Shown here in pieces: positions 12,003 through 63,605 of a stretch of DNA of 64,000 nt. The DNA comes from Phoenix dactylifera. Lineage: Eukaryota; Streptophyta; Magnoliopsida; Arecales; Arecaceae. The stretch covers positions 1,228,843-1,292,842 of the forward strand of contig NC_052401.1 in assembly GCF_009389715.1 (NCBI RefSeq), given 5' to 3'. Position numbers and translations under genes: made by a program. The notes beneath the pieces were generated by a model. The model ran no database searches, had not been told where the DNA came from, and was given only the letters and a program-made list of their open reading frames with translations. Each line of letters starts with the position of its first letter. Within the stretch, counting starts at the first letter, position 1.

Positions 12003-13422
12003 GGCCCTGTTTGGAGGAGCTGTTGGCAGTAGAGCTGTTAGAAGTAGAGCTGTTGAAAGTAGAGCTGTCTGAAGTAGAGCTGTTATGAAAAGTTGTTTGC
12101 TGTTTGGTAACTACATTCGTAAAGTGCTGTGGTAGTTTATTTTGTATTTGGTAAACAAACTGAAAAAGTATTTTTGTATGACAAAATTACCGTAAAGGAC
12201 ATTGCATAGTATTATACAACAGAACATAATAAAATATAACATAAATTAATACATAAATATACGATATAGTATAATATTATTATAATATAAAATAATATTA
12301 TGTTAATATAGCATAATAGTAATATAATTATTAGAGTAAATAAATATTTGGTAATATAACATAATATTAAATTATTTAACATAACATGTTAATGTATTAT
12401 GATATAATGTAATATATATTATATTTATAGTATAATACAATAATAAAAGTATAGAATATTATAATTATCAGTATAAATTAATTTCTCATAATATAACATA
12501 ATATTAAATTATTTAAAATAACATATTAATGTATTATAATGTAATATAATATAATATAATATTTATAGTATAATACAATAATAAAGAGATAAAATATTGT
12601 AATTATTAGTATAAATTAATTTTTCATAATATAACATAATATTAAATTATTTAACATAACATATTAATGTATTATGATATAATATAATATGATATTATAT
12701 TTATAGTATAATACAAAAATAAAGATATAAAATATTATAATTATTAGTATAAATTAATTTTCCATAATATAACATAATATTAAATTATTTAACATAACAT
12801 ATTAATGTATTATGATATAATATAATATGATATTATATTTATAGTATAATACAAAAATAAAGGTATAAAATATTATAATTATTAGTATAAAATAATTTCC
12901 CACAATAATTTTTTATAATTTTTCATAAAATAATTTTCCGCGGTCCAGGGGCTCTTCTTCGTGGTCCACGCTCAAGGAGGACCTCAGCGTGGGTCGCGAG
13001 GTTGATGATAAAAAAAAAAACAATAGATTGATTTTGGAAGGTATGGAAAAGGATTAAAATTTTTTTCTTTTAAAATGTGGTTCAAGAGATGCATACAAAA
13101 ATTGAAAAGAAAAATACCTTTTCTTACGGAAGGGAGTTTGACGGCTAGGGTTCTTGGCTCCAGCAGATTTTTAGGTTTATAAAGGGACAAACTATGTAAT
13201 TATGTTATTTTAATATGAGCATTTTTGTCAAAAATACAGTTTTCCGAAAAAGCTGAAACAGCTTCCTCCCAAAAGCTCCAAATTGGAGCTTCCTCTCAAA
13301 AGCTATTTTCAGCTTCCCGCAAAAGCTGAAACAGCTTTTTGAAAAATTTACCAAATACAGTTTTTCATCTAAAAGTACTTTTGGTGCTTTCTGGCCCTCC
13401 AAAAGCTCCCCCAAACAGGACC
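12003..13422. mobile_element. Harbinger-like non-autonomous DNA transposon
   Basis: The ends are inverted repeats. The left starts GGCCCTGTTTGGAGGAGCT, and the right read in reverse starts GGTCCTGTTTGGGGGAGCT, with 21 of 24 positions matching. The 3-bp duplication TGA flanks it at 12000-12002 and 13423-13425, which fits the PIF/Harbinger class (3-bp targets). Just inside the left end are short repeats of AGTAGAGCTGTT. The right end has repeated AAAAGCT phrases. No transposase frame was seen. The middle is a tandem array (separate entry). Confidence 0.75.
12340..12915. repeat. About 138-bp tandem array, four copies
   Basis: The phrase AATATTAAATTATTTAA recurs at about 12363, 12500, 12638 and 12777, giving a period of 137-139 bp. 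Each unit also carries TTATAGTATAATACAA and TTAGTATAAATTAATTT-type segments. The array is almost pure AT and lies wholly inside the Harbinger-like element. Confidence 0.85.
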
Positions 13423-43964: not shown

Positions 43965-45194
43965 TCACTCAGGATTGTGAGACAAGCAATCAAGCCCCTC
44001 GGTTCGGTTGCATACAATCTTATGGAACACCTCTCTCACCTGGCGTTCCAGGGGGTCCAGCCCTCCCTTCATGGACTCGCAAACCTGGGCCAGCTCCTCC
44101 ACGCTGTGCCGTATCCCTACCTCTTTCTCCTCCGTCACTGGAAACTGGATTGCATCCATTAATTCCATCAGGTGATGAGCGCACTTCTCCATCTGATGGA
44201 TTTCCTGCAATAGACCGCTCGAATTCTTCCGGTCCTTTTTCTTGGACTCCTCGACGATCCGCTCGTGGAGCGACAGGATGGGGGCCGCCCACCGGTAGCT
44301 CCGGGGGATGGAGAAGTGGATACCAAGGCCACGGTCCTGGCAGGGGATCGCGGCAACAAGCACCCACATCACGAAGAGGAGCACCGAGCTCATGGTAAAG
44401 ACACCGACTGCGAGCCCGCTAGTGGCCAGGACCTCGTGGCCGCGGGGGGCGGCGAGGTTGTTCCCGATGGCCTGGAGCTGGCGGGCAGCGGACCATGAAC
44501 GGGAGACGCTCCAGGAGAGGGAGCGGAAGTGGCCGCCGGAGGAGCGGCGGTGGTGATGGTGGTCGCGGCTGGAGGAGCCGCTGCTGGAGGAGCCGCTGCT
44601 GCGGCCGAAGGAGCGGTTGCGGTGGGAGAGGACGGAGCCGGCGGCGTCCTTCTCATCGAGCATGAGGAGGGTGACGTCGGTGAGGGCCTTCCGGGCCCTT
44701 CGGAGCTGGCCCTCCCCGAGGGCCCCCCGCCGCTTATGCCGGGGGTCGGCAAGCGCGACGAGAACGATCTCCAAATGTTTCGACCACTGCCGGAGCTGAT
44801 CGATTCCGTCGCAGATGGCGTTGCAGACGTCGAGCGCCTTGACGCCGCGCTCCAAGAAGTCGGCGATCATCCGGTCGAGCGGCGGCCGGCCGACAGCGGC
44901 GCGGTGGTTGAAAAGGACGATACGGAACTCCTCCTGGCACACGAGGAAGGTATCCAGGAGCTTCCGGACCCACGAGACGGATAGGAGTTCATCGCCGCCG
45001 GCGGAGGCGGCGAGGTCTTGGAAGAGGACGGCGACACGGCGCTGGAAGGCATCGAGCTCCTGGTCCAGGCTGGCGTAGTGGTGTTGGCCGGCGTCCATAG
45101 CGTGGACCTGATCCCGCCGTCTGCTCAAGATCGAACGGCCAATAAACGAGAACGGCGCCGACGATCCCTGGTATTCGATGGCGGGCATTGTCAC
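43965..45194 (-). CDS. ROH1/BYPASS1-like protein (DUF793)
   Basis: Single exon of 409 codons; the second Met, at codon 3 ([19 protein letters not shown]), matches the usual family start and may be the true one. Conserved blocks include [46 protein letters not shown] and [16 protein letters not shown] Ser/His-rich low-complexity linker at about 190-222 precedes [20 protein letters not shown]. One strong hydrophobic segment (about 255-283) could span or insert into a membrane. ROH1 relatives bind the exocyst subunit EXO70A1 in Arabidopsis and BYPASS1 relatives affect root-derived signalling; the role here is inferred. The gene is strongly GC-rich, as many monocot single-exon genes are. The closest subfamily is not resolved. 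Confidence 0.9.
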
Positions 45195-45442
45195 ATCCCA
45201 AGAGCCCTAGCTCTCTCTCAACACTCCCCCTCCCCCCCGGCGAACCACCAACGGAATCCTAAAAAATTCGCCGGAACCACGGCAATACCGAATAAGAAAA
45301 CCCGGGAACACGATCGAAACCCTATGATCGGATCGAATTCGAGGAGGAAATGGAAGGAACCGTGGATGCGGATGGATCCAGAATCCCTAGGCAGAGCAGG
45401 GCTTTCATGAATCTCGGCCGACCGACTCTTCGAACAGCGAGA

Positions 45443-47548: not shown

Positions 47549-47935
47549 TTTTTTGGTATATCAACTGCTTACTGCCATTGGAGTTAAAAAAAAGTATGCA
47601 ACATACAGGGATAGGAGAATAGATACAAGATGGGTACAAAAAAAATTTACAGAATAGTGGGCGGCAAAGGAGGCCGCCCAATCTACAGCTTTGTTTGTCT
47701 CTCTATAGACATGCACAGCCTGAAAACCGCTACATCATTCAGTAGCCTTCTGATGTCCTCTAGAAGCAAGTGGTCTGCTCCTCCGCCCCTTCCGTAAAAT
47801 CTGCTCAATCACTTTCACTGAGTCCCCCTCAAGAATGATGTTGTCAGCCTGTAGTATTCGCCTCGCATAGGAGATTCCTTCCCATGCTGCCCTGAGTTCC
47901 GCTTCTGAAATTGAAGCCTCAAATGTTTTCTACTT
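47549..47935 (-). mobile_element. 5'-truncated LINE, RNase H fragment
   Basis: After a T-rich tract, the minus strand encodes an RNase H segment with EAELRAAWEGISYARRIL, ADNIILEGDSVKVIEQI and, in another frame, a tail including VDWAASFAAH. It is closely related to the RNase H parts at 15640-15876 and 5935-6730. The 5' break is near 47935; no clear target duplication was found. Confidence 0.75.
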
Positions 47936-51567: not shown

Positions 51568-51795
51568 ATAGTGGTTGGCATACAACCCTGCCAGCGGGTA
51601 ATAGTAGTTAGTTAGCATACGATCCTGCCAGTAGATAATAGTAGTTAGTTAGCATACAATCCTACCAGCGGGTAATAGTAGTTGGCATACGACCGTACCA
51701 ATGGGCAATAGTAGTTGGCATACGATCCTACCAGCGGGTAATAGTAGTTGGCATATAATCCTACCAACGGATAATAATAGTTGGCATTTGTCGAT
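51568..51795. repeat. Minisatellite, about 32-43-bp unit
   Basis: About six to seven imperfect copies of a unit like AATAGTAGTTGGCATACGAT followed by CCTACCAGCGGGT. Unit length varies because the phrase TAGTTAGT is sometimes repeated. Confidence 0.85.
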
Positions 51796-52761: not shown

Positions 52762-53070
52762 TTTTTTTTCTTTTTTTGGTAAATCAGAATTTATTAAACT
52801 AATTTAAAATAAATACATCCATAGCAATCAGAAAAAAAATAAAATATTTAACAATTGAGAACAAAATTTAGTCACAAACATCTACAGTATAGATCCTATA
52901 TGAGCATCAATATATGATTCCATTCAGTTTGCAACACTATTAGCTTCTCTAAAAATATATTTTGCTTCAAAAGATTGAACGGATGCATCTATTCTTAAAC
53001 AATTCTGAATTTTGAAGATGTTGAATCGGTCAGCGACATAATAATTGTCAAGAAATCTCCCTCCAGGATG
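52762..53070 (-). mobile_element. LINE 3' part, split by a CACTA element
   Basis: Starts with a T tract (52762-52778), the A-tail of a minus-strand LINE. Minus-strand translation gives the C-terminal half of an RNase H with the phrase AKYIFREANSVANW. It stops at the CACTA insertion, and the N-terminal half resumes beyond 57215. Confidence 0.82.
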
Positions 53071-53100
53071 CACTACCAGAAAACACGCGTATAGTGACGG
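53071..53100 (+). repeat. Left terminal inverted repeat of the CACTA element
   Basis: 30 bp, perfectly complementary to 57186-57215. Confidence 0.95.
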
Positions 53101-53769
53101 AAAATTAGTGACAGACCGTTATCAGTCACTATTTGTGACGGATTAGTGACCGACATAAATTTGGTCACCGTGGTGTAAACTTAGTGACAGATTAGTGACA
53201 GGCCGGTCACAGAATGCGCGGGTAGGATGGGCGCCAAAACTTAGTGACCATCGTAGTGACGGAGTATCTGTCAGCAAAATGATAACCGAAATTGCAACCA
53301 GATAGTGACAAATTCAGCCGTCACAAATATCGTAACCTAAGTGTTTATAAATTTTTAAAAGATTATTTTTGGCAGTGACGGGCTATTGACAAAAATTTCC
53401 GTTACCAAATTTAAATTTTAATTCCAAAAATATTAAAAATATTATTTTTGAGTAATTCTAAATTAAAAAAAGATAAAAGGAGGAAAATCCAAAATGAAAC
53501 TAAGTGTGTCCGCCGTCCCGCCTAAATTCCTTCGATAACCCAAATTTCAATCGTTCTCCAGAAAATTCAAATTTCTTCTTCTCATTTTCAAATCTCATGG
53601 TGCCGGTCATGACCTATTTGCACCCCTACTGCTGCTTTCCTGCAATGGGATTGGATTTTGGAAGAAGGTCTGGGATTTTTTTTTGTCCTCGTGAGTGGGG
53701 AGCTGGGAGACATCAAGTTCGGTGCAATCGGCCTTATAGATAAAAAATAGTTTGATATGAAATTTGGCT

Positions 53770-54400
53770 TGCAGACCGACTTACCTCATCACTTCCCCAT
53801 CAGCCCGGTCGAAGCACTTCCCCATCAGCCCGGTCGAACTTAAAACATTGGCTTCGTCCCGATTGGACGGTTAGGGCTTCTGGCATCGCCGCTTCCCCTT
53901 TCTTGTCTCCCCTCTCCTCTCCTCTCCTCGACCTCCGCCCTCTCCTCTCCGGCTCCTCCTTGCCGACCATTTGTGCCTCCCCGTCGACGGTGACCACGGC
54001 TACATCACGCCCCCCGATCGGCCGATCCAACTCTCACCCGGGACAAGATCATCACGGCTACATCACCCCGTCGACGCCCCCCTTCTTCTTGCTCGTCGGC
54101 TAGGGTTTTCAGAACCCACAACTGGTTCTTTCCCGAGCAAGGTAAACCCTAACCCCGTTTCTTTTTACCCCATGATAACAAAATAAAAGAAACGAAGAAG
54201 AGGAAGAGGAAGGGGGAAGGAACTTACCGAGGGTCTCCGCCTGTGGATCCAGCGCCGCGCTTGATCGCCGCCGTGGCCGCAGTTGTCAACGGCCGCGCTA
54301 GGGTTCTTCTTTCCCTCCTATCCGGGTTCTTTTCCTTCCCCTGCTGCAGGTAGGCAAGGCAGAGAGGGTCATTCCTCCCCCCTCTGCTGCGGGTAGTCCA
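53770..54400. other. GC-rich interior of the CACTA element
   Basis: Contains a 27-bp direct duplication (CACTTCCCCATCAGCCCGGT, at about 53790 and 53817) and CT-rich leader-like sequence with TAGGGTTT. A second TAGGGTT phrase is near 54300. It resembles the 5' leader of a gene, either the element's own or captured. No protein family was recognised in its frames. Confidence 0.4.
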
Positions 54401-55382
54401 GTCCCGATTGGCATTCTTCCTTCCCCTGTTGGTCGCGTTCTCTATGATGTTGAATTTTGTCCTCTCTCTCTCTCTCTCTCTTTCAGTATAGAGCTTATCC
54501 CTTCTTTTTCCTCTTGATTTTTGGGGTTTTCTTCGTTTTCTCCTGATATTATGTGGTAGATTTTATAATGGTGGTTAGGATTTGCGCTACAAGTACCAAG
54601 GTTAGGGTTTTGGGTTGCCCTGGTCTTGAAGTTGCCGGATCTGGCTATAGCTATATGAATAAAGAGAAGAGGGAAGAAAACTGGTCGGCTTGCTCTCCTT
54701 ATTGTTGGCAACCCGCTTACCAAGCTTCCCACATTAATTTGTTCTTAAAATGTAGCTTCCTATTTTATTCTTTTTTATTTTTTGTGAGAAGGGCAGAAGA
54801 AGGAGATGGTGCATGTGTTAGCCATTTTTAGAGGACCTTCTCACACATCAAGAGCTATCTATTTTCTTTGTTTTTTTAATGTTTTTATTAATTTTTCAAA
54901 GTGATGATATCTCGGCCATTATCCAGGCAAGCTGTTTTTTAATTGCTGCAGATTGTGTCATCAATGCCTACATCTGAGTCTTATTTTCTTTTAATCTGTC
55001 GCTCTATTGTTCCATGCTGTTCTCTATAATCTCTCTAATTACTTTTTTTGTTGTGTATTGCTATGAAACTTTTTGGCCCTCCTATGTTTTGGACTTCACA
55101 CCTAGGTGCAACCAGTTTGATTTGGGATTATGGCTGATATGCCACCCAAACAATAATGGATATTTTTCAGCTGTTAATTTATGTCTCCAGAAAATCAATA
55201 GTAACTTAACATATTCAATTTTACCATCAAATTAGAATGAGGTTGCAGAGCTTAATTACTGTAGAAAGAGCTTTATAAAGATTTTAAGTAGGTGATAGAT
55301 ATGTCTTTACCCTGTTGCTGATCATCATAAAGATTGAAAACATATGGTCCTGGTATTTTGGATTGGGCTTTCAATCTCAGGA

Positions 55383-55715
55383 TCGAAATGACACAAAGTC
55401 TTGTACTGTAGCAAATTCTTGTATTTTGGATTGAACAGCCTCATTACTTGCAGCGTTCGAAGCGGCAATTTCTTCTAGGCGCTTCCATACAACTTCACGT
55501 TTTGACTTAATCTCCTTTTCTTTAGATTCATCTTCTTCAAACTTCTTCAAGCACTCCATGAATAGCCCAGGATCATGATCAGAAAATATCTTACGAATAT
55601 TTAGCGTGAGGCTCTGAACAGCTTGGTTCCAGTGAGACTTTGTATTTCTCTCCAAAGCAGGGAAGATAATTGGTAAAATCGCCTTACAGTTTTGTTTTGT
55701 TTAGTCTTTATTAAC
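55383..55715 (-). pseudogene. Captured fragment of a PP2A B56-type regulatory subunit gene
   Basis: The minus strand encodes ILPIIFPALERNTKSHWNQA, then VQSLTLNIRKIFSDHDPGLF, ECLKKFEEDESKEKEIKSKR and WKRLEEIAASNAASNEAV. This is the C-terminal part of plant PP2A 56-kDa (B') regulatory subunits, which direct the PP2A catalytic core to substrates. The phrase QNKT in the next frame, just upstream, continues the family match, so a small frame change or shortened intron lies at about 55695. The rest of the gene, including almost all HEAT-like repeats, is absent. The fragment lies inside the CACTA element, so it is a transduplicated piece rather than a working gene. Confidence 0.82.
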
Positions 55716-55727
55716 ATCTTGTAAGGA

Positions 55728-56026
55728 CTGAATTTGCTTTTAGTATCGGTGGGCGGGTACTTGATAAGTATCGTAGTGCACTTAAACTGAATATTGCCGA
55801 GGCCTTGATTTGTACTCAAGATTGGGTGTTGGAAAAGAAAGGTATATGTTTTATTAATTATATTTCTATTATTTTTTGAATAATTTATTATTAATTATTG
55901 CAATATTTCAATGTAGATGTTGAGGATGCCAAGTTAGATGAGATTGTAGAAGATGTCATAAACTCAAGTTTCTACAATGAAACTCAATCAACTCAATGCT
56001 CGGCCAATGTTGAATCCAATTCATAG
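55728..56026 (+). pseudogene. 3' end of a hAT transposase gene, captured
   Basis: Two exon-like parts, 55728-55841 and 55917-56026, with donor GTATAT and acceptor TGTAG, join in frame. The first encodes FAFSIGGRVLDKYRSALK and EALICTQDWVLEKK, the C-terminal dimerisation motif of hAT transposases (family form SAFSTGGRVLD). The second encodes DVEDAKLDEIVEDVINSSF and ends at a stop. The N-terminal DNA-binding and catalytic parts are missing. It abuts the PP2A fragment in the opposite direction, inside the CACTA element. Confidence 0.78.
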
Positions 56027-56699
56027 TGAGATGAATCATGATCATGGGACACTCCCTTTTGGTTTTGGTTTAAATATGGATGTTGTTATAGTTTGGGACT
56101 TTTTTAGTTTTGCTTTGACTATGGATGTTGTCATTGGTTATTGTAATTTTGGTTAAAATTTCAGCTTCTCAGGTATGCCCTCATCTAATGTCACTCTTAA
56201 CTTTTGCTCATGTTTTTATATTTCTGTAAGTAACTATGAACTGAATTGTAATGCTTTCTTTTTAACTTCAGATGGGATATGCTTTGCTAAAGGAAACAGG
56301 TTAAGGGAAACAAAAGGGGCAATGCTCTCTCTCTCTCTCTATTTTTTTTTTGCCCCTCTGATGAATGGAATGAAACAGGTTAAAGGAAACAACAAGGGGC
56401 AATGCAAAAGCAAAGGGTCAAAGCATACTGCTGGCTTTCTATCTGAACGAGTACAAGTTCTTATTCCGACTCCTTCCCGGTTGACAGAGTTGAAGTCATT
56501 TATGTCAGTCCATTGGAATCATATACTGACGACATTTATATATGTCTCTTGTATTCTGGAAGGAGAGATGCTGAATGAAAAGCTTTCACCAGAACACTTC
56601 CATTGTTTTGTTTATGCATATGACTGGATGAGGCTCTAGCTTGTATTTTTCTTTTATTATGAGCCAATCAATGTACCAAAAATACCAGATTATTGGAAT

Positions 56700-57215
56700 G
56701 TGACCAGTGACCAAATTTGGTTACTGAATAGTTTACCAAGTATTGTGACGAGCTAATATAAACTTAGTGACAGGATTTTGGTTTCTAAAAATTGATTTTG
56801 CTCAGTGAGTCAGTAACGGAATTAGTGACAAATTTAGTGACAAAGTCTGTGACCATGTCTGTGACGACTAAATCTGTCACTGAAGGTTGTGAGAAATCCG
56901 TGACCAAATTTGTGACCGAATTCGGTGACAAAATCAGTGACCAAGTTATCTTCGTCACTAACTCAATGACTGGTTAGTGACGGGAAATACGTAATTTTTT
57001 AAATATTTAATTTTTGGATTTGTAACGGCTTAGTGACGGCGGTTCTGTCACGGAGTTTAGTGACGGAAATCGCCGCCGTCATTGAGAATTTAGTGACGCG
57101 TGTTTTTGTAACTAATTTCGTGACGGGAGCTCCGGTCACAAATTTCGTATTAGTAACCGGAAACACGGTATAGTGACGGGAATCTCCGTCACTATACGCG
57201 TGTTTTCTGGTAGTG
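56700..57215. repeat. Right subterminal GTGAC motif array and inverted repeat
   Basis: Many copies of TTAGTGAC, TGTGACCA, GTGACGG and GTCAC in about 500 bp, ending in the 30-bp inverted repeat at 57186-57215. The open frame at 56792-56977 is just this array read in one frame. Confidence 0.85.
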
Positions 57216-57218
57216 ATG

Positions 57219-62662: not shown

Positions 62663-63605
62663 CTATTCACAAGCCAGCTTGGTGTCGAAGCTACTCAAGC
62701 AGATGGCAAAAGCCTGGAAGGCTGACAGCGGATACCGAAAATCCATGGTGAACATGTCCTTCGCAACCTTCCCAAACTGCAGTAAGATCTTATCATGCTC
62801 GGGTGGTGCAGGCTGCGACGGTGTTGGAGCTCCAGCGGCGGGCTGCGTCGCAGCGATAAGCTGGAAGTTCTTGACTGATGCAACAGTCACCCGGCCTCGG
62901 AAGTTGAGGCACCAGCATTGCAACTGCTCGTGCCATCTCGGGGCCTTGTTCCGAAGGATCAGAGGCCTCTCTTTAGCCTCATCTTCCTCATCACCAATAC
63001 CCCTGGGTCCTCCGGCGATGTCACAGAAGCGAGAGCTGCTGAAATCCATGGACCGGTCCATGATGGATGACTTAGAGAAGGACATGCTGCCGAAGGAGTC
63101 ATCCAAAGAGCGGGGGAGCAGATGGTCAGGCTGACCAGGGACGGTCCCTCCGGCATCGAGGGCTGATGCAGGAATAGAATGCATGATACAGTGCATCCGC
63201 CTTGGGCCCCGGGTGCCCAGGACATTCAGCTCGTAGGTCACTTGCGCAATGACGTAGCTTCCAGACGGAACTTTAGGAGACACTTTCTTGGAGTAAAATC
63301 TCTTGCTTGTTTTCCCAGGTTGGGAGAGGGCTGCTCCGTTGTGTGCGGGTTGCGTGTCGTAGATTAGGAACTTAGTACCAAGAAAATTAGACCTGAGAAG
63401 AAAGTCAATCAGGTTTGTAGCTTTTTAAATTAACCCAAAATGAAAAGAGTTTTGAGTCTTCACAGTTGTAATCACCTTAGTTTTCCAATATAAGTGTTGC
63501 TTGATCTAGATATATTGTCAGCATCCATAGATATTATGTATTCTGTACAGGTTGTGCGGCGAGTTCTTTTTGCTGATAGGAGGAACTTCCCATTTTCAAC
63601 AAGTA
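62663..63605 (-). CDS. Tubby-like F-box protein, C-terminal part
   Basis: Two exons are visible: 63605-63476 and 63392-62663. The earlier exons, with the F-box, lie beyond the right edge. The first encodes [19 protein letters not shown], then [19 protein letters not shown]. The second encodes [35 protein letters not shown] and [19 protein letters not shown], a variable acidic and Ser-rich insert, and [20 protein letters not shown]. It ends [20 protein letters not shown] and a tail with FDTKLACE. This is the tubby domain, which binds phosphoinositides; in plant TULPs it is joined to an F-box that links to SCF ubiquitin ligases. The Arg of the junction is split AG-G across the intron, confirming the frame. 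The 3' UTR probably extends to about 62430. Confidence 0.94.

Follow-up and report, generated by a model that had tools for sequence, protein, structure and literature searches.

The stretch of Phoenix dactylifera DNA analyzed here, 64 kb in length and referred to below as the window, contains a CACTA element in which, according to the original prediction, two unrelated gene pieces lie head to head between positions 55383 and 56026: a C-terminal fragment of a PP2A B56-type subunit on the minus strand and the 3′-terminal part of a hAT transposase gene on the plus strand, the latter with an intron-like interval. The locus raises the question of what kind of element carries these pieces, how they came to lie side by side, and whether such a combination is out of the ordinary.

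Boundaries and coding content of the element

Members of the CACTA (En/Spm) superfamily are recognized by terminal inverted repeats (TIRs) starting with CACTA, a 3-bp target-site duplication, and clustered subterminal repeats, with a transposase present in autonomous members only. The element spans positions 53071 to 57215 (4145 bp, unstranded) and ends in perfect inverted repeats starting CACTACCAG..., the 5′ TIR (53071 to 53101, plus strand) pairing with the 3′ TIR (57185 to 57215, minus strand) at 31/31 positions, i.e., with 100% complementarity over 31 nt. It is flanked by an ATG/ATG target-site duplication, located at 53068 to 53070 on the left and 57216 to 57218 on the right (both unstranded). 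The TAGTGAC motif occurs 22 times in the window, and 19 of these copies fall inside the element, where they form two subterminal clusters, with 9 copies no more than 330 bp from the left end and 10 no more than 530 bp from the right end. Exact matches to the first 15 nt were found in the window only at the element's own two ends, and tolerating 3 mismatches returned 3 further sites versus 2.15 matches expected by chance. A 30-nt stretch of the inverted repeat, used as a query, had no match in viral contigs. The region from 53071 to 57215 is thus a CACTA element on the basis of its TIRs, ATG duplication, and TAGTGAC motifs, and both gene pieces indeed lie within it.

We then considered its coding content. 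The element contains 62 stop-to-stop open reading frames (ORFs) of at least 35 amino acids, 41 of which were scanned with Pfam, including all 40 of at least 45 amino acids; of the two hAT ORFs, only parts were covered. Apart from the hAT tail, no transposase family was found in the 41 of 62 ORFs scanned, and apart from the B56 fragment and the hAT tail, none of the scanned ORFs passed a curated Pfam cut-off. Matches to Pinin_SDK_memA (E = 0.0071), BORCS6 (0.037), DUF1539 (0.049), BIG2_C (0.056), and Cas_Csx8 (0.058) all scored under the curated cut-off of the respective family and were regarded as chance hits. Because no transposase of its own was present in the ORFs scanned, the element is most likely non-autonomous, a property that does not exclude it from the CACTA superfamily.

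Insertion site and surroundings

The empty site was rebuilt by removing the element together with one ATG, and the minus-strand reading was taken across the join. This reading matched the RNase-H-like family RVT_3 (PF13456; E = 9.4e-4) over residues 8 to 90, with the junction near residue 70, and neither half alone, kept in the same frame, had a Pfam match at E values up to 1. The score of 19.5 bits is below the Pfam cut-off of 21.6, and the reading contains stops (X). A further fragment of the same family lies on the minus strand at 47735 to 47929 (E = 6.1e-05). Since the RVT_3 match spans the junction and another RVT_3 piece is present in the window, the target of the insertion was probably a decayed retroelement or RNase-H-like gene, as judged from sequence similarity.

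Several other features were noted elsewhere in the window. An ORF of 413 amino acids, open throughout, encodes a ROH1-like protein (43965 to 45206, minus strand; PF05633, E = 3.4e-150), ROH1 being a plant family, and an ORF of the Tub family (62663 to 63424, minus strand; PF01167, E = 7.8e-76) may represent one exon of a tubby-like gene. Two tandem arrays were also detected, one with a 33-bp unit at 51568 to 51787 (6.4 copies, 81% matches) and one, AT rich, with a 138-bp unit at 12323 to 12898 (4.2 copies, 92% matches).

The B56 and hAT fragments

The minus-strand ORF at 55377 to 55700 matched the B56 family (PF01603) with an E value of 1.1e-22, its residues 2 to 79 (55464 to 55697) aligning with positions 336 to 413 of the 413-position profile. 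A phmmer search retrieved 8 distinct solved B56 chain sequences (best E value, 5.3e-15), all matches ending by residue 85. The predicted C-terminal B56 piece on the minus strand is therefore well founded, and since only the last 78 profile positions are covered, it is a fragment rather than a full domain. From about residue 86 down to position 55383, the tail of the ORF is without matched homology. The predicted span of 55383 to 56026 does hold both pieces, although its left border at 55383 is uncertain. The fragment is non-transposon coding DNA of the kind by which Pack-CACTA elements are defined. Its matched stretch is open over all 78 codons, although 33 of these are one step from a stop, and this suggests that decay has been limited. 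The B′ genes of tea consist of 2 to 4 exons in most cases and of 16 in one, according to passages of PMC12124296, too wide a spread for intron content to tell the origin of the B56 piece.

Relatives of the B56 fragment were also sought in contig collections. Three pattern-matching stretches were obtained from viral contigs, none of them confirmed, and 39 from genome contigs, of which one was confirmed (L001; 38% identity over query residues 38 to 92), with an E value of 6e-6 that is relative to the candidates. Judged by eye from 351 of its bases, this stretch is taken to encode an unrelated bacterial protein and was set aside.

On the plus strand, the hAT piece matched the C-terminal dimerization domain (PF05699) with E values of 1.1e-06 for the first exon (55721 to 55841; Pfam match, 55721 to 55828) and 1.8e-06 for the spliced reading, which covers the last 36 positions of the domain (profile positions 49 to 84 of 84). 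The predicted 3′ end of a hAT gene was hence recovered, as a fragment with an incomplete dimerization domain, and no other transposase family, such as would mark a catalytic part, was seen in the ORFs scanned. The intron-like interval is also borne out: positions 55842 to 55916 on the plus strand form a 75-nt GT-AG interval with an AT content of 88%, versus 61% in the flanking exons, and the unspliced frame runs into an early stop, whereas removal of the interval keeps the frame open to a TAG stop at 56026. The putative last exon (55917 to 56026, plus strand) is assigned by this continuity of frame, since by itself it has no Pfam match. Just past the hAT stop, at 56057 to 56139, are two 38-nt direct repeats (82% alike, 45 nt from start to start), which may belong to the 3′ untranslated region of the hAT gene.

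The B56 and hAT Pfam matches face each other with their 5′ sides across a gap of 23 bp (55698 to 55720), in agreement with the predicted head-to-head orientation. Given such proximity, the two pieces may already have been neighbors when they were captured, for instance as a decayed hAT element beside a B′ duplicate, so that a single uptake event would account for both; hAT elements are often found near plant genes, which also counts in favor of this scenario. We hold it to be a possible history, albeit not the favored one.

A probable snoRNA passenger

About 0.7 kb to the left of the B56 match, the same element contains a plus-strand match (54642 to 54736) to the H/ACA small nucleolar RNA (snoRNA) snoR109 (RF01206), which was part of neither predicted piece. 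The covariance model scored 37.3 bits, 3.3 bits above the gathering score of 34, corresponding to E values of 0.012 for the window and 7.5e-4 for the element. No other Rfam match in the 64-kb window reached its gathering score, and a tRNA search of the window returned none. Passages of PMC5122169 count snoR109 as an orphan snoRNA, one that could be assigned no target in rRNA or snRNA.

The narrow excess over the gathering score could mean that the match arose by chance and that no snoRNA was captured. The predicted fold agrees with such a reading, being no better than that of shuffled sequences (z = −0.66; 46/200 shuffles fold at least as well), as do promoter-like motifs, which occur at chance level. 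Two candidate signs of a snoRNA promoter were rejected in this way: the window has 2 telo-boxes, both located in the element, where chance predicts 1.13, and 54 site II motifs, where chance predicts 54.3. Nevertheless, the match is full-length (model positions 1 to 92), shows blocks of conservation at either end, and has an ACA box (54731 to 54733) placed 3 nt before the 3′ end; it is also the sole one in 64 kb to reach the gathering score. A chance match is accordingly rated as rather unlikely. The segment is probably a captured snoRNA copy, live or dead, to judge from its agreement with the model, and probably represents a third passenger, new beyond the B56 and hAT pieces.

Possible transcripts of the element

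Because the B56 fragment is oriented opposite to the hAT piece and the snoRNA match, which are both on the plus strand, a plus-strand transcript, if made, would hold B56 in antisense, as far as orientation goes. On the same grounds, the element could be transcribed from its plus strand into antisense RNA giving rise to small interfering RNAs that lower expression of the parent PP2A B′ gene, but we view such silencing as very improbable. Alternatively, plus-strand transcription could produce a chimeric spliced RNA with the captured pieces as exons, by analogy with Tgm-Express1 of soybean, which passages of PMC1947982 describe as transcribed and spliced. The GT-AG interval kept in the hAT piece would fit such an RNA; against it, no plus-strand ORF in the element exceeds 160 amino acids and none joins the pieces, which leaves this outcome doubtful. 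A combined scenario, in which the CACTA element would carry and spread an H/ACA snoRNA gene and a single plus-strand transcript would be the source of the snoRNA as well as of an arm antisense to the PP2A B56 gene, seems far-fetched to us.

Capture history and comparison with known elements

We consider it very likely that the element is a Pack-CACTA-like one, moved in trans and carrying at least two, probably three, unrelated passengers: on the minus strand, the 3′ part of the coding sequence of a PP2A B′ (B56) gene, and on the plus strand, the 3′ terminus of a hAT transposase gene along with, probably, a snoR109-like RNA. The transposase of an autonomous relative would recognize the inverted repeats and the TAGTGAC repeats and mobilize the element in trans. 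The passengers may have been taken up through neighboring insertions followed by aberrant excision, as in the model of tandem insertions put forward for Pack-CACTA elements in passages of PMC8903248 and PMC13317346, although ordinary break repair inside the element could equally have introduced them. Both the order of capture and the mobilization in trans are inferred here, and the passengers most likely have no protein function.

The element resembles the Pack-CACTA elements of maize and Arabidopsis, which, according to passages of PMC8903248, have CACTA termini, lack a transposase of their own, and carry coding DNA, in some cases from several loci per element; it differs from them in that one of its passengers derives from the gene of another transposon and a further one is a probable snoRNA. 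Tgm-Express1 similarly combines five unrelated gene fragments, with introns, in one CACTA element (passages of PMC1947982). However, Tgm-Express1 is inserted in an expressed host gene, within intron 2, whereas the element described here probably sits in decayed RNase-H-like sequence. Host gene fragments are likewise found inside the CACTA-like elements of Chenopodium, where they lie upstream of conserved transposon domains (passages of PMC8978399); in contrast, no CACTA transposase domain was present in the element ORFs scanned here.

The original prediction had also deemed unusual the combination of a phosphatase-targeting subunit with a transposase of another superfamily. This view finds no support, as both soybean (passages of PMC1947982) and maize are known to have CACTA elements that combine sequence from several loci, even if the cited passages do not name a PP2A-hAT pair. 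No title on CACTA capture of protein phosphatase 2A appeared among the literature matches listed, which does not imply its absence in print. A transposase fragment as a passenger would come as no surprise where transposons are common.

The probable snoRNA copy is the only less usual part of the element. No snoRNA in a CACTA element appeared by title among the literature matches listed, which again does not mean that none has been published, and in the passages of the Pack-MULE literature looked into, the word snoRNA occurs only in a reference list or a read filter.

The element adds to the documented habit of gene-fragment capture by CACTA elements and provides a cleanly bounded case of gene shuffling by a non-autonomous member, with a probable non-coding RNA beside pieces of protein genes. 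Should the snoRNA prove to be live, the element would be evidence that small RNA genes can be mobilized by Pack-type elements. Such passengers would escape annotation that relies on similarity to coding sequence; the packFinder pipeline, as passages of PMC8903248 describe it, uses BLAST against coding genes to sort elements.
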